Positions 8,573 to 63,645 of a stretch of DNA of 64,000 bases are shown in pieces. The stretch is taken from assembly GCF_037392515.1 (NCBI RefSeq), contig NC_090291.1:33608501-33672500 (forward strand). The letters run 5' to 3'. The notes under the pieces were generated by a model. That model did not search any database, was not told the DNA's origin, and saw only the letters and a list, made by a program, of their open reading frames with translations. How positions within the stretch are numbered: position 1 is the first letter of the stretch; every line of letters begins with the position of its first letter. Made by a program: the position numbers and the translations under genes. The DNA comes from Haliotis asinina (Eukaryota; Mollusca; Gastropoda; Lepetellida; Haliotidae).

Positions 8573-8858
8573 GGTTCGCGTACGGGGACCCGTGAAGGTC
8601 CCGGGGTAGAATAGCCCTTCAGCAACCCATGCTTGCCATAAAAGGCGACTATGCTTGTCGTAAGAGGCGACTAACGGGATCGGGTGGTCAGACTAGCCGA
8701 CTTGGTTGACACATGTCATCGGTTCCCAATTGTGCAGGTCGATGCTCATGTTGTTGATCACTGGATTGTCTGGTCCAGACTCGATTATTCACAGACCGTC
8801 GCCATATAGCTGGAATATTGCTAAGTGTGACGTAAAACTAAACTCACTCACTCACTCG
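8573..8858 (+). mobile_element. SINE family 1, well-preserved full copy
   Basis: The copy starts with GC-rich 'ggggacccgtgaaggtcccg'. Next come 'cagcaacccatgcttgcc', a tRNA-like segment ('ggtggtcagactagccgac' as box A-like, 'catcggttcccaattg' as box B-like), 'cactggattgtctggtccag', and the tail 'atagctggaatattgctaag'. It ends in ACTC repeats. This copy serves as the reference for the others in the window. Confidence 0.88.
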
Positions 8859-16245: not shown

Positions 16246-19200
16246 TCAGCTGTACTGAGAGTTGTTAAAGGAGTTCAGTCTGCGCTGAGCTGCCTGAAAT
16301 ATCACCTCTCGTTGTGACCTTGGGTCATCCGACTGATCAGACACTGAGGAATGATCCCCTGCTTCTGCACTGTGTCTGTTCTTGTGGAGGTATTTCCTAC
16401 AATACAAGAAAAGAAAAACATACAACAGACTAGGTGAGTTTGGTTTTATGCCACCTTTGGCAATATTCCAGCAATATCATGACAGGAACACTAGAAATGG
16501 GCTTCACACTTTACCCATGTCCAGGTCTTCGTCTTGATCCAGGTCATGGATCCAGGTCTTCGTCTTGATGAGCAAATGCTTTAACAAGTGGGCTAACCCA
16601 CTGCCCCACAACAGACTGAAAGGGATTTCAGGTATTCCACAACCTTCGCCAGGGAAGAGGAGATAAGCAATTAAGCATGAGTCAGTCAGGACAAGGAAAA
16701 ATTTAGATATTTCTAGCATCATTTACCCAAATCTGTCCCCCTGTCATATCTTCACATCTGAAAAGGGTTTCTCACATACTATCATAGGGAATCAGACACA
16801 GGTCTTCGGTGTGAAGAGCAAACAGCTTAACCACTGCCCCAAAACAGACTGGAAGTTCTACATCTTTTTGGTATCATTTACCCAAATATACCCATTAATC
16901 TTACTTTTCATATGGAAAAATACTGATGTCCTAAACAGACATACTGGTCTTTTTAATGATGTGTTAGTAAATCATCATTCAACGTGAGTAGACTTACCTT
17001 CTGGCTTGATCAACCATGGATGTTTTTCTGTGTTCTAACATGGACATTCTCTCTGATGCAGATTTGGAAAATCTTCCTCCTAAGGGTGATGGAACATCCT
17101 CACTGAAACATGCCATACAACATCCAGCATGAAGTACCTGGTATAACATTACACTTACACAGAAACATGTCATACAACATCCAGCATGAAGTATTTGGCA
17201 TAACATCCTCACTGAAACATGTCATACAACATCCAGCATGAAGTACTTGGCATAACATCCTCACTGAAACATGTCATACAACATTCAGCATGAAGTACCT
17301 GGTATAACATTATCCTTACACTGAAACATGTCATACAACATCCAACATGAAGTACCTGGTATAACATTACACTGTCATACAACATCCAGCATGAAATACT
17401 TGGCATAACCTACTCACTGAAACATGTCATACAACATCCAGCATGAAGTACCTGGTATAACATTACACTGTCATACAACATCCAGCATGAAGTACTTGGC
17501 ATAACCTACTCACTGAAACATGTCATACAACATCCAGAATGAAGTACCTGGTATAACATTACACTTACACTGAAACATGTCATACAACATCCAGCATGAA
17601 GTACTTGGCATAACATCCTCACTGAAACATGCCATACAACATCCAGCATGAAGTGCCTGGTATAACATTGCACTGAAACATGTCATACAACATCCAGCAT
17701 GAAGTACTTGGCAATACATCCTCAGCTTTGAAGACAGCTTTGAAAATCTAGGCCCTGGTCCTCAGACACTTAAACCATTAGGTCCCAGCACACAAAGATG
17801 GGTGCTGGATTAATAGCCTGGTGCCTTAGACGTCTCTCCCCCACGTCTTCACTGAAACACACATCACATAAAGTCTCCTCCTTCAAACACACATCACACA
17901 CCATGTCTGCTCAATGAAGCACACATCAGACAATACTAGTATGTCTCCTCTCTGATTACACACAGGTGCATGTGATACACCTGGATAATCCCAGCTGCAG
18001 TGGTGACCATGTATCTGTATGGGTTCAACCTCTACATGCTATCTATCACCTACCTGTGTCTAAAGTCCCCAGAGTTATTAACTATGGCCTTGACCTGAGC
18101 CAACAGAGGATCTGCCTGAGTGTCCAAGTTATCCTCCACTAACTGATGGGTATCAGCCAATGCAGCCCTCAATCCCATCAGCCCTGTCCGAGACACGGTG
18201 GATGGTACAGCTATCTGCTGAAAGACATGGCATAGCTACACATAGTCAACTGTGGAAAGCAAACAATAATTAACACAAAGCCCAAAGCCCTTTTCATTCA
18301 CATAAAAAAAATCTCTGAGAAGACATAACACAAGAAACAACTATATTTATGCTCACAAAATGCCCAATATTGGCATTAATGTTTCCTAAAAGAAATCCTT
18401 TGTCTTAGAATACTGAAGTTTTTATTTTACAGTAATGGTACTTGTGAATTAGAGCAGAGACCATATATATTATATCGTCTCTAATCAGAGGAATTAAAAT
18501 GACATGAAAGCAATGATGTCTGCAAACACCAAACAAGGCTGTCAAGTCATAACCATTTTGCTCATACCTGCATATTCTGTTCATCATCAGCGTCGTTGTC
18601 AACACTGGGTCTGTTGGCAAGTACTGGTGTCTGAAAAACACAATTGTACATGAATAATGCTACTGAGTAAACCACATGACTATATTAGTGGGCTCTGTTC
18701 AACAACCATGGTGATCTACAACATATCTAGTTTATTGCAAGAGTGGCTCATGGATCCTACAGAAATAAACATGTTCAATTTTACTAGTATTTGCACAATT
18801 ATCAATATATATGTATTTGTCACAACAATATGAAACATGTCAATGGTAGTTTAAGAGAGGGGCTGTTCAATAATAGAGCCTAAGAGCTCGATCACAGTAT
18901 CACTTTGAACAGTGTTTGAGTTATATCAACAAATGTCATAGATATCCGATGTAAGAAATCTGATGAACATTTACAACTACAGGGAAACCAAGAAACATGA
19001 ATATGGTGCCTTCATGGCTGTGATATGGTCATTACAAATAACGTGAGAAAAAGCAGAGGTATAGTGCTGACAACCCAAGGATCATAATCTGGGAGATTCA
19101 AACTAATATTACTGGGAGGTATGATCACCTTAGCGCTAAGATCACTTTGTACAACAGCCTCCTACAGAAAACACCCAGTTTCCTGGTCTGCAGTTCCTTC

Positions 19201-22200
19201 ACTTGGCTAATATCATTTTTCAATGGATATAATGTGTCAGTTCAAATCATAAATAAACAGCAACACGACAACGTTCGCAATGTTTACACTCTCAAAATTC
19301 AAAAGTTGTAGAATGAATGAATTCACATGTTTGTTATGAATGGAAAAGTTTCATCACAACTTGACCTTATTATCCAATGAAATCGTTAGAATCTCAGATC
19401 AAGTCGTCCTGACACATGTCAATGCAAGACAATGTACGACTCGTGTGATATATGAGATTAATATGTAACTACCCATACGTTCACCACGTGGGTAATAAAA
19501 TGCCTTACTCCACTGGGTCAACTGGGTGCTCACGGCAAGAAGTGAAATGGCAATACTCACTGGTGGAGCTACAAGTCTTCCCTCCAGAATGTTGTCTATG
19601 GTCAGGTTCACAGATCGAGTAGCTCCTAAATCATCCACAATGGTAGCCAGAGGCATGTTAGGAAATACTGCTTGCACCTGTCTAGCCTGAAACAAGGATA
19701 GTGAGTGTTAGTTTTACCCCGTTTTTAATAATATTACAGCAATATCACAGCGAGAGACACCAGAAATGGGCTTCACATACTGTACCCATGTGGGGAATTG
19801 AACCTGGGTCTATCGATACATTCCCAAGACATGACTGAAATACTGCCGATGTGACTTTATACTGTAACTCACTCATTCTTGTTCATTGCTGTCAGCAATA
19901 TTTCAGCTAATTCATGGCAGTCTGTATATTACAACGTCTGGACCAGACAAGTGATTGACAACATGAGCAACACAACCCAATTACTGATCAGCCAAGTCAG
20001 GAAATCTGACACAGACTATTTGGTCTGTGTTGACAATGTCTATCAAAAACAGATTACCTTAGATCTGTTACTCACCATGTTATCTAACTGGGAAGTAGGT
20101 GACACCCGTGCTTGCTGTTGTCCTGGCAACAGATTGGTGTGAGTCACCTCCACCGAGAAACTCGGCAACCAGCTCACATAGCGAGATGCTGAAACAACAA
20201 AAACGTTCATAGCAGAGAAATGCTTCCTTGCAAATTATTTTTGAGCATTAAATGGTGATGAGAAAAAAACACAAGTTTCGAGAAAAAAATTGGTGGCCTA
20301 TTTTCTCGCCTTTAGTTACCTTGGGTACGTTAGTTTTATGCGATTCTTAGTAACATTCCAGCAACAAAACGATGGGGGGAACCACAAATGGTCTACACAT
20401 ATTGTACCTATGTCAGGAATCAAACCTGGGTCTTCAACATGATGAGTGAACGCTTTAACCACTATGCTAGACTTGAAGCTACATTTCACCATGTTAAGGA
20501 ACGTAACAGCTCCATCACTCCTTCATTCAGGCTTACTTACCATCAAAATGAAAGAAGTGATTCGTGGTTGCCTGGTTGGCAGGTGGCGCTGGTGGTGCCC
20601 CAGCATTCCCTGTTTCGGGTGGCACTCCTTGTGGCACGTTTTGTCTCTCACGTGGACCGTCACTCAGTGGCATGCGACAGGTTGGACAAGACGTGTCTTG
20701 TTCCAGCCAGGATCGTAAACAGGAACTGCAGACAGAACAGTGCATAACCATGACATCCCTATATCTCAGTTGCATCATGTATATCTTGATCATAGATTAT
20801 TGATATCTCAATTGTTTCAGGGATAGCTTGATCATAGATTATTGATATCTCAGCTGTATCATGGATATCTTGATCATAGATTATTGATATCTCAGTTGTT
20901 TCAGGGATATCTTGATCATAGATTATTAATATCTCAGCTGTATCATGGATATCTTGATCATAGATTATTGATATCTCAGTTGTTTCAGGGATATCTTGAT
21001 CATAGATTATTGATATCTCAGTTGTTTCAGGGATATCTTGATCATAGATTATTGATATCTCAATTGTTTCAGGGATATCTTGATCATAGATTATTGATAT
21101 CTCAGTTGTTTCAGGGATACACTTCACGGATATTATTATGGCTATTTCCCTGATATACCATTGTTATATCAATGCTCTGTGACAGATATCTGTCAACTGT
21201 TTAGCAGATACCTGTCTGCTTTATGATGGATGTCTGTCATGTATATTGCATTGAATACACAATGCCATTTAGAAAGTGGTCAGATATAACCAATTGTATT
21301 TGGGATTATCTGGGATTCGAAATCACTAGCCTAGAGTCAGACGCCTAATTGCCAGCACACAAAAGTCAGTCGCCCAACTTTATTGGTACATATCTGTTTC
21401 TGCCCAAATGACTCTATCTTATGTTTCAGAATATGTTCATAAATCAGAAAATATGCTGAATTCCCTCCATAAATTCCCGAACTACCTCTGCTGAACATCA
21501 AACATGGTGAACAAATCACATTCTTACTTCACACTGCTACACTGGTAGGTGAAAGAACTTTATACTATTGCAACATAATTGGAAAAAGTTTCACACAAGT
21601 GTATTAGTATGAGAGGCATGGGAGACATTTCAGAGTGAGTGAGTGAGTGAGCGAGTGAGTGAGCGAGTGTAGTTTTACGCCACACTCAGCAATATTCCAG
21701 CTATATGGCGGCAGTCTGTAAATAATCTAGTCTGGACCAGACAATCCAGTGACCAACAACATGAGTATCGATCTGCGCAATGGGGAACCGATGACATGTG
21801 TCAACCAAGTCAGTGATCCTGACCATCCGATCCCGTTAGTCGCCTCTTACAACTAGCATAGTCACGAGACATTTCAGAAGTTATGCAGTACAAATAGAAT
21901 GTCTCCACTAATTAGCCCTCATCACATCTGGTCCGGACTTACTTGTGGAAAAGATGGCTGCAGGGGAGCTTCCTGGCTGACTCCATCCTCTCCCAGCAGA
22001 TAGCACAGTCATCATTGTTCTGCTCCAGGTCTTCCTGTGTTGCCATGGGGAACCTAACAGAACAGTTCCCATGATACATTCAGCCCTCGTGTCACTCACA
22101 ATAATCAAGGATAATCCTACTGATCATTTTAAATTTAGCAGAGCAAATACCACTTATTAAGCTGAAATCCTCTTCAAATCTTTCTGAACTTTTTACGTTT

Positions 22201-25200: not shown

Positions 25201-28200
25201 CACAAAGTTCCAGAATTTGTCCTTAAGGTGCTGAGCAAAATGTAAAGGCAAATAATAAGCAATCAACCAGAGACAACAAATCATAAATGTCTTTCTAACT
25301 TGATGATACTACTTGCTTGACCACCAAAGCTTATTTACTTATTTACTATTACATAGGTCCTTCACATTAATTGTACAAAAGAAAATATATGAACTAGCTT
25401 CTGGCAGTGGTACAGAGCTGAGCAGACGGAAAGTCATTTAGCTTCTGTCAAATGTACAGAGCTGAGCAGACATAAAGTCAATAAGCTTCTGTCAATGGTA
25501 CAGAGTTGAGCAAATAGAAAGTCAGTAAGTTTCTGTAAATTGAACAAAGTTGAGCAGACAGACAGGCCACCAACATAACACTCACTATTGATTTCTAAAA
25601 ACATTTACACCTCTACAATCATCTCTCGACTAGGACTCCGTGAATTAACTGATTACCTGTTGTTCACTGACTCGGAGTTCCCCAAACACCATGCGCTGAA
25701 TGAGCTTGCCCAAAAGGATCAGGCAGCAATAGGCTGTATTTACCAGGGTCTGAAACACACATACAAGTTGGAATATCACTACTGGATGTCACCAAACTTA
25801 CACCAGGGAACAACCTTGACATTCAACTTTTATGTTTCATGCTGCTGGAAAGAAGTAGTGGTCAGTGTATTTTATTTGAATTTTGGAATCCGACCTTTCT
25901 AAGATGGAATACTTCAACTGAAGCATGTAATTTTCTGAATAAAATTGATATTTTATACTTATCCTGACTCATGCTTATTTGCATATCTCTTTCCTCTATG
26001 CAAAGATAGTGGAACACTTGAAATCACTTGAAGTTCCCTTCTTTTGAAATGGCCATACAATCACACTCACCCACTGGAAGCCTCCCCGTTTCCCACCTCA
26101 TTGGTCACATGACCAGTCCTGTCTGACATTCTCTCCATAATTCAATAAGCCCAATACAAAAATTGCAGAGAACCCAATGTGTCTGAGTGGGGCGGTAGGG
26201 AGGGCTTGACATCATGTGTCAGGATAAGTGTAAAATACAAATTTTATTTAGAAAAGAACACATTTTTCCTTATCCTGACTCATGCTTATTCTGCCTACAG
26301 AATCCAATGGAATCAACAGTGAGTCAGACCACAGTGGATTCTGTTGGATGCCATGTAAGTACATCCAGTACTCCCCGCTCCTTCAGGAACTGTAAAGGTG
26401 GTAATTTGGTCCTGTTCTTCCAAGAGTCATCTGTAAAACTAGGGAATCACATCCAGTCAAAGTTCTCTTCTTGTGAAGCGATTGCTGACTGGAACATAAT
26501 GACATGCAGATCATCTCGCATCCTGCTAATGTCTCAGGCAACTGTATGTCAAGATTCGTATCACAACAAGTTGCAACCCTTCACATGTACAGGTATCTCC
26601 ATTACGAGTATCGGATCAAAATCACTCATGATTCTAGATTCTCTTGCAACTTTTCCTTTATGATGTCCTCATCATCGAGTTGCGACTCTTTTTCATGAAC
26701 AAGTAACTCCTTTACAAGTACAGGGTTATCATCACTCTGGATAAAAAGGGGTGAGCGAAACTGAGCATCTTTGTGGAACCGTTTGTTGTTGTAGTACAAG
26801 TGGCCCAAACTGGTGAATGCCAGCGACCTTCTCAGTGGCAATGTTCCATAGGTAGTGGTTGGGAAACACTGTATTTGATTTCCAAGAGCAGCCGTCCATT
26901 ATAGATGTTAGCAAACATTTTCCATGTAGAGCAAGTGTCGACGCCAAGGTGCTCACTTCGCGAAGGTTTGAGTCATGTTGTGTTGTAGTCTGATCCATAC
27001 TGAGATACTTCTGTAAGTGTCTCAGTAGATAATTGCATGAATAGTTGCTTGAACTTTTGTCTCCTTCACTTAGTTCACTGAAGATGTATTTTCAATGCTC
27101 TGAATTGGGCAAAATGATAAATCCTGTGTATCATGTAGCCCAAGGACTGTCAATAATGCCAGAATTGTCATACCAGATCTCCAGGCAATTGAGTTTGGGC
27201 AATAACATCCCATCACAGTCCTTGGAGCGCAAACGCACAATGATTGGTGACAAATAGCGTACGATTGTTGAAGTCCAGTGCATGTATTTCTGACATCTGT
27301 GTTGCCGTAGCTATGGCGAATAGAAACAGTGTTGTCTGTGTCAACAGATAGAAAGATTTCCGATCTGGTGTTTTGTAAGTGTCACAAGTGAGATGCTGAA
27401 GTACAACATTCATGTTCCAAGCTGCTGCCTTAAATCTGCGTTGTTTTTTGCAGCTTGAACCAGTATAGTGGGGTGAGTAAGACCGGCACTTTCGTCAGCT
27501 TGACCCCAGTTCTCCTGGTCCTGCTAAGTAGGTCAAAAGTGTAGAACTTTTAAGTCCTCTAGAATGCCATGGGTGACATAGACAGTCCTCTACTGGAGGA
27601 TGTGTGGTTTTCAGTTCAGTGAAGCCCTTCCACTTGGTGCATGTCTCAAATCGCATCCATTTATCGTCGTTGACCTTGCTTATTTATGTATAACGGTACT
27701 GTGGAGTTTTTGATGTGGACCATCAGTAGTCTGTCCCTCAAAGCAGTCGACCAGTCATACTGCGCTGATTACAACTTTCATCTCAGGTGGGCTGACATGC
27801 AGAGTGTGGTTGTTGCTTGCCTGAATTCCTGCTGCAACCTCATCAAATCTTCCAGTAATGCGATACTGTTCTGTGTACACCATGCTCTTTGTTGCAGGAA
27901 CATTTCAATCTGCTGAATATTCATGAAGACAAATGGCCATGATCAGCTAGAGTGTACCTTGGTAACGTGTTTCGTACAGCATGTACTTATCAGACAAACA
28001 TACAGTGGATGTGTGTGGATTTATATACAGAAGAATCTTGGTGGTAGTGTTATTGGTGAGATCACAGTAAGAGAATGTCCTTGTGATGTCATGACTGCAG
28101 AGCTTGCTGGTGGGGGATTCCCAGTGGGTGTGTGGCAGCGTTGTTTAGCCGTGTGTTTGGAAACATAGTTTGATAATCCAATTAATCACTCTGGTGTTTT

Positions 28201-34095: not shown

Positions 34096-37000
34096 ATGAG
34101 TGTCCTAATTGGTAAGTAGACATTGTTTATTAATGGTATCAAACAACAAGAGACTGCAGTTCAAGAATGCCCCTAGATATTAGTGCATAAAAAGCCCCAA
34201 ACTGGAAATTTTATATCCAATTCCTGTTAGGTAGACAGTGTTGGCTCAAGAGAAGGTTTTGGAGTGTTTTGACTCATCAAATTCAGTGAGGACCCCCTCT
34301 ATTTTACATCTGCCCATCTATTTAACATTGGAGGGGGTCCAGAAACATTATTTTCATCAATTTGGACCCACTCAAAATTTCACCCAAATCTAACAGTGGG
34401 TAGATCTCATAGGGTTTACGACAACTATATTTTTGCAAGCATTTTAAAATTGTGCTGCATGTGGCATATGCTGTTCATCATAAGTGACAATTTATCATTG
34501 ACATTAAACACGAATAGAGAACCATAGTGTATGCACACCAGCCTTACCAGGTGCTTGGGAAACAGATGTAGGCAGCTGAAATATTCAGTCCTGTGATAAA
34601 CCAATCGAATGTACGAGTCAGTTATTTTGCATATCAGAAAAGCATAAATAAAATATTACAATTAGCGTTTCAAAATCAGAATTATATATTTCTTATGATC
34701 ATGAAAGTAAGTTAAATCCAATATTATCTGATACATTCTCTGTTTAAATCAGAAACATAATATCCCTTCAGTCTGTGTAATCAGCAAAACAATAATGACC
34801 TTGGGTGCCATTCCTGACAGTAGAATGCTATAGTCTGTTGCACATGAAGTTCCTCAACAAGCAAAATGTGCTATTTTTTATTTAGGGATCAAAAGATGAT
34901 GTTAAGTTATAATATGTTTGCTCTATCCAAATACAAGATCTGAATTTATTTGATATTTACTGTACACTGGAATAAATCACTGGAGACAAGTGTTATATGC
35001 ATAACTTATGCATAACCATACTAATTGTGCTAGACATTATTATGGTTGACCTTTCCTGGTTGATGTCAGTATAGTGCAAGATTTCAAAGGTATTAGACAA
35101 GTATTAGATGAGCCACGACCTGACAAATGACCCCAATTTGCATATATGGGAGTGCCCACTGGAACATTCCATTTGAAACAATATGGAAACAGGTTGTCAT
35201 CTAAATATTGAAAAGTCTATTTTCTTGTGCAAATCATATTTTGATTGTTATATCATACTACTGGACAAATGCTAAACAGAAGTTGCCAGTCAGCGTGCAT
35301 TGCACATGCTTAATCCCTCCTTAATCTACCTCATGTGCATGTATTCGTCTACAATCCCTGACCCGTCTGCTTGTCACAAACATGTTCACTGCACAAGTTC
35401 ATCTAATACATGCCGAGCAGTAGTCCATTGCATACAGTTCATTACACTTTGCCCAATTCATTGGTTCCATTTGTCCATTGCGCTGTCAGGGTACAAAGTC
35501 AACACACAAATAATAGTGATAACTTACTGCAAATGTTTTTATGTCTGTAAGCCTTTTATGTCTGTGTATGTCCATTTAACATCTAAATCAAAATAATATA
35601 CTTCTGTTTTTCCAGTTTATGTTTAACATGTTTCTATGTTACTGTTGCCAACTATTTGGAGATAGCAGATGCCTCTTGTCCCTCTGCTGTATACTCACTA
35701 TGATGTAATAGAGGTATGATCTTTGAGGAATTTTCAGCAGTAGGTATCCTTGTGTCTTCTAGTCCATGAGGAGTCTCATCCAAATCATCAGTGTAACTAC
35801 ATCTAGTTGATGAGGGTTGAAATAAATGACATTTTACTGCCCCACACATGTACAGGTGCATTTTCTACAGAAGATAGGGTTTTCCTCGTAACTTTGATAT
35901 GTTGGTATATGAAGTGGACATCTGTTGAAAATCTAGATTCAGTTTTATACTATTCCTGACAACCAAGTTTTGGTTAGTTATTTAATCTCAAATCAGTAGT
36001 AAAATATGTTGATAACTGATGTATTTATCATTATTTTACCTCTGGCATCATGGCTCTGTGACTTAATTAACCTTTACAATGAGAGTGAGCGAGTGAGTTT
36101 AGTTTTACGCTGCACTCAACAATATTCCAGCTATATGGCGGCAGTCTGTAAATAATCGAGTTTGGACCAGACAATCCAATGATCAACAACACGGGCATCA
36201 ATCTGCGCAATTGGGAACCAATGACGTGTCAACCAAGTGAGTGAGCCTGACCAACCGATCCCGTTAGTCACCTCTTATGACAAACATAGTCACCTTTTCT
36301 TTGCAATGCGAAAATGAATTGGCCAGTACAATCATAAAAGGGAGGTTGTTGTTGGATTGGACCCGTGTGTAAAGTTAACCACTTCTCCATGCAGGTGGCG
36401 GAAGTGGTTTCATTGGACGACATTTAAGCAGGCTTCTCGTTGAAAATGGCTTCAAAGTCACTGTTGTGTCAAGACAGACTGGCCCAGATAAAATCACCTG
36501 GGTAAGTTACAGTAACTGCCAAACTTACATCTACTTAAATGTTAACCTGTTTGAAATGACATTTACCAACTTTGATTGGTGTAAAACTTTGTCTTCTTTG
36601 CAGATAGGAGTGCCCTGTTTTGCACACATGAATGTTTTCATCCCTGCAAGTTCATGTTTTTATTCATTTAACTTATTTGCAATTCAGCTTCAGGTGCATA
36701 GGATTGTAAGGTTGTGTTGAATATTCAGATCGTTCCTCTGGTCTGTTTATGCAAATCAGTAAGCACAGATTCAGTTGGCATTGTCATAGTGTGTTTGTGA
36801 CAATTTGTCCATGGAATATGAGAATCTTAGTCAAAGATTGTTACCATTGGGTCAGATTTGTTAAACAAAGGTTGTGAGGAGATGTAACATATTGACACAA
36901 CATTTCACAATACTCACACTCCTCTTTAACACTGCACAGGTACCGAAGGAGGTCTGTAAATAATTGGATCTTGACGAGGCAGTCAAAGGATTGACACAGA

Positions 37001-40000
37001 TCTGCTCAGTTGGGTTGCAATGATATGCAAGCAACCAAATCGCTGACGCTGGTCACCTGATCTATTTTTGCCCATTATGCCAATCATAGGTTCCTTGTGA
37101 CTTGTATGTTGCTGGTGATCCCACCAGACTGGGCTAGCAAAGTGTTGAAAGTTGTTGGACGTCAGTTTTGTTCAGTGTACAGACCTGTCTAATCAGCTTA
37201 CAATGGATTTGAAGACTAAAGGTCAAATGACCCTGTAACTAGTGCGAATGTTCAACCAGGATTAAGAAACAGGATTTAGGCCTCAGGTCCATGAGATTAG
37301 TATAACAATATATTCATCATAATTTGGCATAAGCATTTTCTATCTGACATTATTCATATATTTGTTCCAGAAGGTATTGATGTTTATGTTTACAATGTTA
37401 TTCAGAATGACTTGAGTCGCAATGGCCTGCCGGAAGGATGCACAGCCGTTGTCAGCATGGCTGGGGAAAATATTCTCAACCCAAAGAGACGGTACTGTTC
37501 TTGGGGTGTCTGTTGTTGTCAAACTTCACCTTGCTGTAGTGTAGCAGATTGTTCAGTAACTAAAACCATTCCTGTCAGTTATGTTTGGTTGGTACAACTC
37601 TAACCTATGTAACTGCATCCTCGATATCTACAGGGTGTATGTTCTGATCTCCACTATACCCTGGATGCATGTGTGACTCCAATAATTATTTACCTTCCTT
37701 GGCTGGCTTTTTATCTAATCAGGGTTCTATGCTGGCAAGATCACAAATACCAATCACAACTCACTTTCGCCTTTTAAATTATCTAACCTATTAATCTTGG
37801 AAACACAAATCATACAGAGGAACTCTGAAAGAGCACAATCAGTTCTTACATAAAGTTTCGGACCTGACAATTTGTCTGAATGATTTCCCCCAAAATCTTG
37901 AGTCTCACTGCAAACAAACTTTTGCAGCCGCAACTGCTGTCTTTGACAGTGACATGCTCAGTTGTAATGACAGCTTAGTTGATTAGCCAATGTGAGAATG
38001 CGGAGTCAGCCAAGGGAGGTAATAAAATTACCATAGATGCATCCACAATATACTGTAGATTTATTGGAATGTATACCCTGGAGATTACGAGGATGGTTTA
38101 AATGAAGACATATAGGATATCGAGATGATGGAACGTTCATTGACTGAGTGAGGGAGTTTAGTTTTACACTGCACTCAGCAATATTCCAGCTATATGGCTG
38201 CAGATGGAACGTTCAGTCTGATTATAGTTTTCACATGCTTTTGTTGCATTCATACTTATTATGTTAGCAGAGGTTGGTGAGAACCCGTGAAGATCCGCAT
38301 TAGAATTGTTCTTCAGTAACCCATGCTTGTTGTAAGAGATAAGTAACAGATATGGTGGTCAGGCTCGCTGACTTGGTTGACATATCATTGTATCCAAACT
38401 GCATAGATATTGATATCGTCTGGTCCAAACTCAATTATTTACGAACTGCTGCTATATAACTGGAATATTGCTGAGTGTGGCATGACACTATACTTGTTCA
38501 CTGGAAAATACTGTAAAAAATTCTGCTAAGTTGAAATATTACTTGGGCAATCCTGTCACAGTTTTTGTCAGCTACTAATATACTGCCTCAGAACAAATCA
38601 CTCACTGTTAAACCCGCCTGCAAATATATTTATTGATATCAGATTCATGTTTGTAGATGGACACCAGAATTCAAGGAGGAGGTTTATAACAGTCGCATCT
38701 CCACCACCAAAGCACTCACATCAGCTATCTTGGCTGCGAGCAAGGTTCCAGAGGTATTTGTATCCATGTCAGGAGTGGGTGAGTATAGAGATAAACCTTG
38801 GTTAGAATTGGTTTCTAATTTTACTAATCCTGCACTACTTGCTTCCTGCTCTTATTGTTTACGGCTTCAAAAACAATGTAAAAAGATGTAGACTGTAATA
38901 ATTTTAAATTTTACTAATTTCAACCCACATCATCTTGATTGTCTGGTCTGTATGAATTGTTTACAAACCACTGGCATATAACATTGTTGAATGCAGAGTT
39001 AAACAACAAACAATTGTACACAGTTGATATCAATCTGATCATATCCAGGTGAACTATCGAGGGCATCAAGTGAAGGCTTTTAACTATGGTGATACTATTG
39101 TTATAAAGGTTAAGTTATCCAGTAGTACAAGTGGATTTGGATGAGATTACATCATGATAAATCCTGACCAATCAAATCTCCTGCAGATGACTAGAAGTTA
39201 GAGTTCCTTAGATCATTGTCTATACTACTCAACATAATCTTAAGTATCACCCAGTTTCATAGTTCATCTGCAGCAAGGTGGTTCATGTCTGGCAATCCTG
39301 ACGTGTTATGTAGATATTTAATGAATGCTGCTTCAAATCACCATATTGGTTTATTTTCCTTATTAAAAATCTTGCATAGAGTCAGCTATTAAAATGAGTA
39401 TTACAAAGACTGTTTTTAAGCTTATTAAAGTTTAAAAAGACTGTAAAAGATACTCTTTAGTTATAAATGTTCTTCTGAAAAGATATACAGCATTCTCTCA
39501 ATATTTATGGGTCCAGGAAAAACTGTTGACTTATCCGAATAACATCACATCCGAGTTCGGCATATCACATGAAAGAAATGGAAGAAAACAGTAGATTGCA
39601 TGTCTACTATTTATTTGTTATCACAGAGATTGCAAATACACATGGTAATCTTGTCATAGTGTCCTTTTCGAAATATAGAAAAGTTGGATTTACTCCACAA
39701 ATGAAGTAAAGAAATGAGAAAGTTTTAACTGACGGGCGTTTGGTGCACACAACCCATCAATGAATTGCTTGTCACATGATGACGTAAGTCCCTGATCAGA
39801 TTCTCACTCTTATTTCATTCGATACTATAATCCGTTATCAGGTGTGTCAAGTTGAAATTGGGAGTACATCCTAATTAGATAAACAAACAAGTGACGTCTA
39901 CAACTCAATTAGCCTGTTAAGGTCAAGGTAGAATAGGCCTTCAGCAACCCATGCTTGCCATAAAAGGTGACTATGCTTGTCGTAAGAGGCAACTAATGGG

Positions 40001-41584
40001 ATCGGATGGTCAAGCTCGCTGACTTGGTTGACACGTCATCGGTTCCCAATTGCGCAGATCAATGCTCATGCTGTTGATCACTGGATTGTCTGGTCCAGAC
40101 CCAGTTATCTACAGACCGCCACCATATAGCTGGAATATTGCTGAGCGTTACATAAAACTAAACTCTCTCAGAATGTTATAATTTAAAAACAATCACATTT
40201 TAAAAAAAAAACATTTCACTTTTGTCCAGCCTACATGTCTGTCAGTCCTATGTTTATACTTGACTACTCTGTTTACTATCTGTACTTACTGTGATTGCAG
40301 CCTATTACCCACCAAGTCCCACTGCGGAGTACACAGAAGACAGTTCAGGAGGTGACTACGACTTCCTGTCTCGACTGACAACAGACTGGGAGGCAGCTGC
40401 CCGACTACCTGACTCAATCAATGTCCGACAAGTTATTGTTAGATCAGGTCAGGGAGTGGTTGTAGTCCCAAACTGCTGTTGTAATACTCTACTTAACCAG
40501 TATAGTTCTGACATCATTTGGGCACACCACATTATTCTGTATGAATATATCCTTTTCAGATTTGCATGACATACTGAATTCAGATTTATGTGGTAATGAG
40601 TGTTATGACCTATTATATTTGAAAAGGATGAATGTCAGAAATCAAGTGAGTGAGTTGGGTTTTACGCAGAAATATTCCAGCAATATCATGGCAGAGGACA
40701 CCAGAAATGAGCTTTAGGCATTGTACTCAAATGGGAAATTGAACCTGGTCTTCGGCATGACGAGCAAATGTTTTAAACACCAGGGTACTCCACCACCCAA
40801 TCAGAAACCAAGTACCATGAAAATCCTGACACTCAGAAGCATGGTCTCACAAAAATAAAGAAGTGTTGTATTCAGAATGTAAAATCTTAGGAAAATAGTT
40901 GTCTGCTCAAAACTTGATTATTTTCAGAAGAGCCTTATGTAAATGGGGTATTGCTGAATATCATTTGAGTGAGCAGGGGAGTTGGGTTTTGTGCAGCTTT
41001 TAGCAATCTTCCAGCAATATCATGGTGGGGACAGCAGAAATGGGCTTCACACATTGTGCCCAAGTGGGGAATCAAACCTGAGTCTTCGCTGTGAATAAAC
41101 CATATGAAGACATGGCTCTTGATCGTGTTGATCTATAGTCAACATTTTCATTTTCATTCCAGGTGTGGTCCTTGGTCGTGACGGTGGAATGGTTCAGCAG
41201 ATGTTCATTCCATTTTTCCTAGGAGTGGGAGGAAGAGTAGGATCAGGATCCCAGTGGTTGCCATGGATACATGTTGCTGATATTGCTGGGCTGTTTACAC
41301 ATGCAATAATGAATCCCAGTGTTGCTGGAGTATTGAATGGAGTGGCACCAGAAGCTGCCACCAACAGTGACTTTACCAATGCCTTTGCCAGGGCCATGTG
41401 GAGGCCAGCCTTATTCCCAGTGCCTGCTTTCGCCATGAATTTCATATTTGGGGAAGAAAGAGGGAGGATCGTTTTGGAGGGGCAAAAAGTCTTGCCCAAA
41501 AAGACTTTAGAAAGTGGTTATAAATTTGTGTATCCTGACCTAAAGTCTGCTTGCACAAGCTGTGCACAACTGGTTTATGTGTAA
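34096..41584 (+). CDS. SDR39U1: SDR39U1, epimerase-type short-chain dehydrogenase
   Basis: Coding exons are 34096-34111, 36395-36501, 37406-37491, 38657-38778, 40301-40447 and 41163-41584. They join in phase to 299 aa (human ~293-319). The first exon holds only 16 coding bases. The Rossmann glycine motif GGGSGFIG is at residues 6-13. Also seen are the family blocks MAGENILNP (~70), MSGVAYYPPSPTAEY (~106) and VVRSGVVLGR, with WIHVADIAG and VLNGVAPEAATN in the C-terminal half. The family binds NADP(H) and belongs to the extended SDRs; the substrate is not established. The donor of exon 5 is GTCAGG, a weak site. The gene shares its promoter with AMFR and converges with AP1G1. Confidence 0.95.
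36082..36297 (-). mobile_element. SINE family 1, well-preserved copy
   Basis: Starts 'gagtgagcgagtgagtttag' and carries all conserved blocks to 'gttagtcacctcttatgaca'. It ends ~100 bp before SDR39U1 exon 2. Confidence 0.87.
36925..37065 (-). mobile_element. SINE family 1, old fragment
   Basis: 'ggtctgtaaataattggat', 'gacacagatctgctcagttg' and 'gctgacgctggtcacctgat' are recognisable. Confidence 0.55.
37616..38095. mobile_element. 480-bp non-autonomous DNA transposon, copy 2
   Basis: Same ends (CATCCTCGATATCT... and ...TTACGAGGATG) and interior blocks ('ttggctggctttttatc', 'caatcacaactcactttcgc', 'gatttcccc') as 13487-13986, but more diverged. No clean target duplication is visible, so it is the older copy. 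SDR39U1 intron 3. Confidence 0.82.
38145..38212 (-). mobile_element. SINE family 1 tail fragment
   Basis: 'gagtttagttttacactgca' to 'ccagctatatggctgcag', abruptly ended. Confidence 0.75.
38285..38492 (+). mobile_element. SINE family 1 copy, plus orientation
   Basis: 'gaacccgtgaagatccgc', 'agtaacccatgcttgttgta', 'ggctcgctgacttggttgac' and the tail 'ctggaatattgctgagtgtg'. It faces the fragment at 38145. Confidence 0.8.
39912..40170 (+). mobile_element. SINE family 1, well-preserved copy
   Basis: 'ggtagaataggccttcagca' through 'catcggttcccaattgcgca' to 'agctggaatattgctgagcg' and a short ACTC-like end. Confidence 0.87.
40646..40800 (-). mobile_element. SINE family 2 copy
   Basis: 'gtgagtgagttgggttttac', 'attccagcaatatcatggca', 'cctggtcttcggcatgacga' and 'gtactccaccaccc'. 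Confidence 0.85.
40968..41100 (-). mobile_element. SINE family 2 copy
   Basis: 'gagtgagcaggggagttggg' to 'gtggggaatcaaacctgagt'. The head is truncated near 41100, ~60 bp before SDR39U1 exon 6. Confidence 0.83.
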
Positions 41585-63412: not shown

Positions 63413-63645
63413 CTGAGTGAGTGAGTGAGTTGTCTTTTACGCCGCACTCAGAAATATTCCAGTTATATGGCAGGGGTCAGTAAATAATCGAGTCTGGACC
63501 AGACAATCCAGTGACCAACAACATGAGCACTGACCTGCGCAGTTGGGAACTGATGACATGTGTCAATGAAGTCAGCGAGCCTGACCACCTGATCCCGTTA
63601 GTTGCCTCTTCCGACAAGCATAGTCGTCCTTTATGGCAAGCATCA
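63413..63645 (-). mobile_element. SINE family 1, well-preserved copy
   Basis: Starts with GTGA repeats and has 'tacgccgcactcagaaatat', 'gtctggaccagacaatccag', 'gtcagcgagcctgaccacct' and 'catagtcgtcctttatggca'. Confidence 0.87.

Follow-up and report, generated by a model that had tools for sequence, protein, structure and literature searches.

At the 3′ end of intron 13 of the Haliotis asinina AMFR/gp78 gene, a minisatellite with a 52-bp period takes in the splice acceptor of exon 14 and the first ten bases of that exon, and it presents ten further acceptors upstream of the real one. This is probably an ordinary minisatellite, in which the exon-proximal acceptor is mostly used and leakage through the decoys is removed by decay.

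AMFR/gp78 is modelled on the minus strand of the window, that is, the whole stretch of 64,000 nucleotides that was analysed. The model covers exons 3–15, and these 13 exons join as a single 547-aa frame with a terminal stop; exon 14 keeps the number given to it in a preliminary description of this DNA. When six stretches of AMFR were scanned with Pfam, CUE (E 4e-9) and G2BR (E 3.8e-7) exceeded the Pfam cut-offs, one exon matched five RING families, each below cut-off, and the remaining three stretches gave no match over the cut-off. A retrocopy or second AMFR was rejected, the four matches found being exons 12–15 of the same locus. The exons at the 3′ end of the model are as follows (slashes mark splice junctions here and below).

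18054..18217, minus strand: exon 13 in the gene model, with donor ACAG/GTAGGT, phase 2
16998..17102, minus strand: exon 14 of AMFR/gp78, 105 nt, phase 2 to phase 2
16246..16396, minus strand: exon 15 (last), coding part with the stop codon; completes G2BR and is the expected site of the p97 motif

The start of exon 14 at 17102, as first proposed in the preliminary description, is backed by this model, in which exons 3–15 lie in one frame: exon 13 ends in phase 2 (..AG) and exon 14 supplies the T, giving AGT GAG GAT. The introns flanking exon 14 are 951 nt (intron 13) and 601 nt long. As a separate observation, the acceptor of exon 13, TTTCAG/CAG (18215–18223, minus strand), is a tandem NAGNAG site that could add or drop one glutamine.

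The TRF coordinates of the array agree with the earlier account of a 52-bp repeat that spans the acceptor and the first ten bases of exon 14.

17093..17724, minus strand: 52-bp minisatellite of 12.2 units (TRF score 807), reaching 10 nt into exon 14
17716..17724, minus strand: upstream edge of the array, starting with TGAGGATGT
17353..17544, minus strand: two adjacent 96-bp higher-order copies, 94/96 identical

TRF also reported the same array at periods of 96, 109 and 205. Cutting it at a CTTCAT anchor yielded 12 units, eleven of 44–57 nt and a last one that runs into the exon, and these units mostly alternate between two types: a B type with CAGTGAGGATGTTATGCCAAG, or a variant of it with GAGTAGG, and an A type running from CAGTGTAA to TATACCAGG. 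Exon 14 opens with the nine-base word TGAGGATGT. The 64 kb contain it five times, always in the array: once where the array starts (17724), three times in decoys and once at the true start of the exon. Because the array both begins and ends with this exon 14 start, a full 3′ splice module is present in most units. An identical short word at both ends is what would be expected if short direct repeats had slipped or exchanged unequally. With two mismatches in 96 positions between the two 96-bp copies, at least one expansion seems to be recent, and their near-identity suggests that the length of the array may vary. The 12.2-unit array lies at a single place in one assembly (1.14 Gb, 159 contigs), and copies of its unit were absent from 20 sampled 10-kb stretches of the genome and from the rest of the window. 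A dispersed element as the source of the unit was rejected: a genome search returned six matches, all at this locus, these counts being lower bounds, with very common words skipped.

Arrays of this kind are common in the genome. TRF, run on twenty 10-kb stretches of two contigs, gave 22 arrays that have a period of at least 20 and at least three copies and cover 23,708 of 200,000 bp (11.85%), with one satellite stretch accounting for 10,000 bp of that total; the window holds three such arrays (1.81%). With minisatellites this frequent, some will overlap splice sites by chance. AMFR exon 9 (start 20725) has a 42-bp array (20761–21119; 8.5 copies with 92% matches) that ends 36 nt before it, on the upstream side and within possible branch-point range; listed open frames on both strands cross most or all of this array. 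Exon 3 (start 25230) has one of 44 bp (25396–25562, 3.8 copies) at a distance of 166 nt, again upstream. Counting the one at exon 14, three minisatellites thus lie upstream of acceptors in the modelled part of AMFR. Two further features were noted in passing. A dispersed element of about 100 bp has at least the copies 8605–8708, 39927–40012, 63572–63643, 36230–36298 and 21802–21865 in the window and matches 12 of the 20 sampled 10-kb genome stretches. Egg_lysin, a sperm protein family of abalones and other vetigastropod snails, has six clustered matches in the genome (contig C14, about 26.67–26.92 Mb; best E 2.9e-12) and none in 14 control genomes; the longest open frame among those listed for these matches is 121 aa.

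The exon 14 junction itself is copied within the array. On the minus strand, CATGTTTCAG occurs nine times in the region, the real site (last G at 17103) included, and the array decoys comprise eight with CATGTTTCAG, three of them inside exact junctions, and two shortened forms. The 20-nt junction CATGTTTCAGTGAGGATGTT is present four times exactly, counting the real one, and twice more with two mismatches, which confirms the multiplied acceptor of the preliminary description. Only 0.01 junction copies with up to three mismatches are expected by chance in the 64-kb window, and none of 100 shuffles reached six matches. Two of the three copies located earlier were placed correctly; the third, put at 17622–17640, was about ten bases off and lies at 17612–17631. 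The real acceptor and its copies are listed below.

17103..17112, minus strand: real acceptor CATGTTTCAG of the gene model; junction 17093–17112
17202..17221, minus strand: exact junction copy, decoy exon start 17211
17254..17273, minus strand: exact junction copy, decoy exon start 17263
17612..17631, minus strand: exact junction copy, decoy exon start 17621
17407..17426, minus strand: junction copy differing at two positions, decoy exon start 17416; overlaps donor-like TCA/GTGAGT (last exon base 17418)
17503..17522, minus strand: junction copy differing at two positions, decoy exon start 17512; overlaps donor-like TCA/GTGAGT (last exon base 17514)
17321..17330, minus strand: decoy CATGTTTCAG in an A-type unit, exon start 17320
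17570..17579, minus strand: decoy CATGTTTCAG in an A-type unit, exon start 17569
17673..17682, minus strand: decoy CATGTTTCAG in an A-type unit, exon start 17672
17372..17376, minus strand: shortened decoy GACAG, exon start 17371
17468..17472, minus strand: shortened decoy GACAG, exon start 17467

TTTCAG is missing from three of the 11 decoy units. The unit nearest the exon (starting at 17191) reads TTTCTG and has lost the AG, and in the units at 17492 and 17396 a deletion removed part of the acceptor and left GACAG. As these last two sit in the duplicated 96-bp blocks, they may represent one event. Selection against decoys was considered and set aside, three of 11 units being too few for a test.

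We scored acceptors with a matrix built from the 12 other AMFR acceptors, whose own leave-one-out scores range from −4.58 to 9.51. The real acceptor scores 5.64, and all ten array decoys reach at least that value. In intron 13, 12 of the 63 other AGs do so, namely the ten in the array together with 17851 and 17880; in the 11 other AMFR introns the same matrix gives 19 of 344. Since the matrix is small and its scores are scattered, near-identity of sequence is the stronger argument for equivalence of decoy and real sites. Of 60 positions compared (−50 to +10), two, −49 and −34, distinguish decoy 17621 from the real site, and the other seven CATGTTTCAG decoys differ from it at 3–15. The distance from TTCAT to the exon is 28 nt at the real site and in eight decoys and 21 nt in the two shortened ones; the AG-free stretch is 33 nt at the real site, 32–33 nt in eight decoys and 25 nt in the shortened two. 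Pyrimidines fill nine of the 16 positions from −20 to −5 at the real site and in eight decoys, and eight of 16 in the shortened pair. The branch motif is a rough guide, given that five of the 12 other AMFR acceptors have none in range. The preliminary description had allowed that poorer branch points or pyrimidine tracts might disable the decoys; instead, all ten have TTCAT and an AG-free stretch and score no lower than the real site. With 17621 nearly identical to the real acceptor, any discrimination against this decoy must come from further off, that is, from the exon body, the donor or the order of the sites.

Intron 13 also contains a degenerate 32-bp array (17849–17933), in which lies 17851 (9.52), the cryptic acceptor with the highest score in intron 13. 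That this site, TTTCAG/TGAAGACGT, is an earlier copy of the start of exon 14 was rejected, its local alignment score being reached by 637 of 2000 dinucleotide shuffles; from its sequence it would be a strong-scoring cryptic acceptor.

Use of a decoy was earlier expected to shift the frame often. Eight of the ten decoys do shift it, and 17621 and 17672 are in frame, yet all ten run into stops, located 102–512 nt before the last exon junction. These stops are the TGA or TAG that begins a B-type junction or exon 14 (17512, 17508, 17412, 17211, 17102). The two cryptic acceptors upstream of the array (17851 and 17880) lead to stops as well, 17851 after a 27-residue tail. Among 13 sites read, the sole open one is a weak AG at 17153 (score 3.15) that would add 17 residues. 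The decoys lie 109 to 570 nt from the real site and would extend the exon to 214–675 nt. On the donor side, the array has two donor-like TCA/GTGAGT words that overlap acceptors and score 7.84, within a range of 4.2–12.13 for the modelled AMFR donors; at 17902, outside the array on its upstream side, a GT reaches 8.38. The exon 14 donor, AAG/GTAAGT, scores 10.67 against 7.84 for the best array donors.

Exon 14 encodes most of an E2-binding region. In the joined peptide of exons 14 and 15, residues 14–40 match Pfam G2BR (PF18442) over the full model (1–27) at E 3.8e-7, with 30 bits against a gathering cut-off of 25.6, and G2BR was the only Pfam family returned for this peptide. Exon 14 supplies residues 14–34 and part of 35, or 21 of 27 complete. 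The gp78 G2BR chains of PDB 3fsh, 3h8k, 2lxp and 4lad also align with exons 14–15, at weak E values of 0.046–0.22. According to PMC8699718, human G2BR comprises gp78 residues 574–600 and binds the backside of UBE2G2. The label "p97-binding exon" that exon 14 had carried is not supported; the exon matches this UBE2G2-binding region instead. A review (PMC5575403) places the p97 motif at the C-terminus of gp78, as its final domain, and the motif should therefore sit in exon 15. Among PDB chains of at least 20 residues, exons 14 and 15 together matched no p97-binding peptide up to E 10, and the exon 15 tail alone gave no match of any kind. The G2BR match and the order of the domains suggest that exon 14 is E2-binding rather than p97-binding.

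How would such an exon be spliced? We propose that the minisatellite grew at the 3′ end of intron 13, most units carrying a putative 3′ splice module of branch-like TTCAT, AG-free stretch and TTTCAG, with ten exon-like bases in some units. Only the exon-proximal copy would define the normal 105-nt exon, with its purine-rich tracts and strong donor. Occasional transcripts from decoys would contain premature stops and be cleared by nonsense-mediated decay, and the array would for the most part be tolerated as a side effect of minisatellite turnover, at the price of some message. Purine runs of at least six number three in exon 14 (AGGAGGAAGA, AGAGAGAA and AGAAAAA) and are absent from the 632-nt array. 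Because three such runs also occur in the 329 nt of unrepeated intron 13 and none in exons 4, 5, 10 and 12, they are insufficient as an exon mark.

Human data bear on the choice between the copies. According to PMC9225289, intron and exon definition switch near 250 nt, so that exon definition would be expected for introns of 951 and 601 nt, and exon definition is said there to favour the sites nearest across the exon. The same study reports that competing human acceptors at least 20 nt apart lean upstream, a lean that two long introns weaken but do not abolish, and exon definition is thus support and not proof. In human CBS, where a 68-bp duplication copies an intron/exon junction, the distal copy is strongly favoured (PMC2630376); the passage uses the word "donor", although an intron's 3′ end carries an acceptor.

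We think it unlikely that the decoys are used often, a reading in which sites that are transcribed first and equally strong would, with more units, yield more frame-broken message and less AMFR protein. The equality of decoy and real sites in sequence and the early stop behind every array decoy are consistent with this idea, as are the recent-looking 96-bp duplication, which suggests length change, and the upstream lean of human 3′ sites at least 20 nt apart (PMC9225289). It is opposed by the preference for the distal copy in the CBS precedent (PMC2630376) and by the array-derived portion of the extended exons, which has none of the purine runs seen in exon 14; in addition, selection would be expected to act against a heavy loss of AMFR message.

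Concerning origin, it is possible, though we doubt it, that the array came first and that the gene recruited its last unit as an acceptor, the first codons of exon 14 then being repeat-derived and an older acceptor lost. The shared word at the two array ends fits this order of events as well as it fits seeding from the exon, and an older acceptor could have lain at any of four in-frame AGs in exon 14 (starts 17072, 17048, 17027 and 17000). The frame across exons 13 and 14 is clean with the present site, which is compatible with both origins.

Competition among the many acceptors and donor-like sites might also cause exon 14 sometimes to be skipped. With 105 nt and equal phases, its skipping would keep the frame, joining exon 13 to 15 and leaving an AMFR with an intact C-terminus that lacks most of the UBE2G2-binding region, since exon 14 holds residues 14–34 and part of 35 of the match at 14–40. 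Its strong donor and mid-range acceptor weigh against this outcome, which we consider quite improbable. Very improbable, in our judgement, is that array length acts as a heritable dial, with length alleles setting the share of transcripts that reaches the UBE2G2-binding exon and hence the capacity for ER-associated degradation.

A repeat-derived cassette exon seems highly unlikely. From 17621 to 17514, for example, an exon of 108 nt would insert 36 in-frame residues before G2BR, and the two TCA/GTGAGT donors do score within the range of modelled AMFR donors. Among the 41 acceptor-donor pairs counted (exon of 30–300 nt, at least 60 nt of intron left), five are open and in frame, two of them with a 7.84 donor, but the other 36 break the frame or hit a stop, and the array is without purine runs. 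Tandem arrays are prone to assembly error, but an array of 632 bp with distinguishable units, at a single place in an assembly of 1.14 Gb and 159 contigs, is scarcely credible as an artefact.

Lievers et al., in 2001, are said to have found that the 31-bp VNTR of human CBS yields alternative splicing. That VNTR, c.1444_1467+7(16_21), has a unit that by its name spans an exon-intron boundary, as does the AMFR unit, and its copy number is variable, according to PMC2630376. It lies on the donor side, with 24 exon and 7 intron bases by name, whereas the AMFR unit is on the acceptor side, with about 42 intron and 10 exon bases. The CBS 68-bp duplication resembles the AMFR array in copying a splice junction with exon bases and in creating competing sites (PMC2630376); it consists of one extra copy with a studied splicing outcome, whereas the AMFR locus is an array of about ten known from sequence. 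Junction-spanning repeats are thus known from CBS on both intron sides (PMC2630376), and the AMFR units likewise include the exon-intron boundary and keep the core splice signals. In human TERT, the copy number of an intronic 38-bp VNTR in intron 6 controls a splicing outcome (PMC3948165); that VNTR lies more than 1 kb from splice sites and acts by RNA pairing, whereas the AMFR array contains the site. A fold of the AMFR array with its exon, covering self-pairing, gave a z of −0.82, about like shuffles (6 of 20 at least as good), and lends no support to RNA structure as a means of hiding the decoys. Among the matches listed from open-licence papers we found no acceptor-spanning minisatellite, which does not imply absence from print; as far as those listed matches show, one of about ten copies is new.

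In this natural gene the spliceosome meets about ten acceptors that almost match the real one in sequence and lie at increasing distances from it. The strength of a site can here be told apart from its position and its exon context with no engineering, and junction counts from RNA-seq would suffice as a readout. If the decoys are silent, AMFR would show how far the context of an exon prevails over near-identical sites; were they used, a minisatellite would set the level of an E3 ligase.
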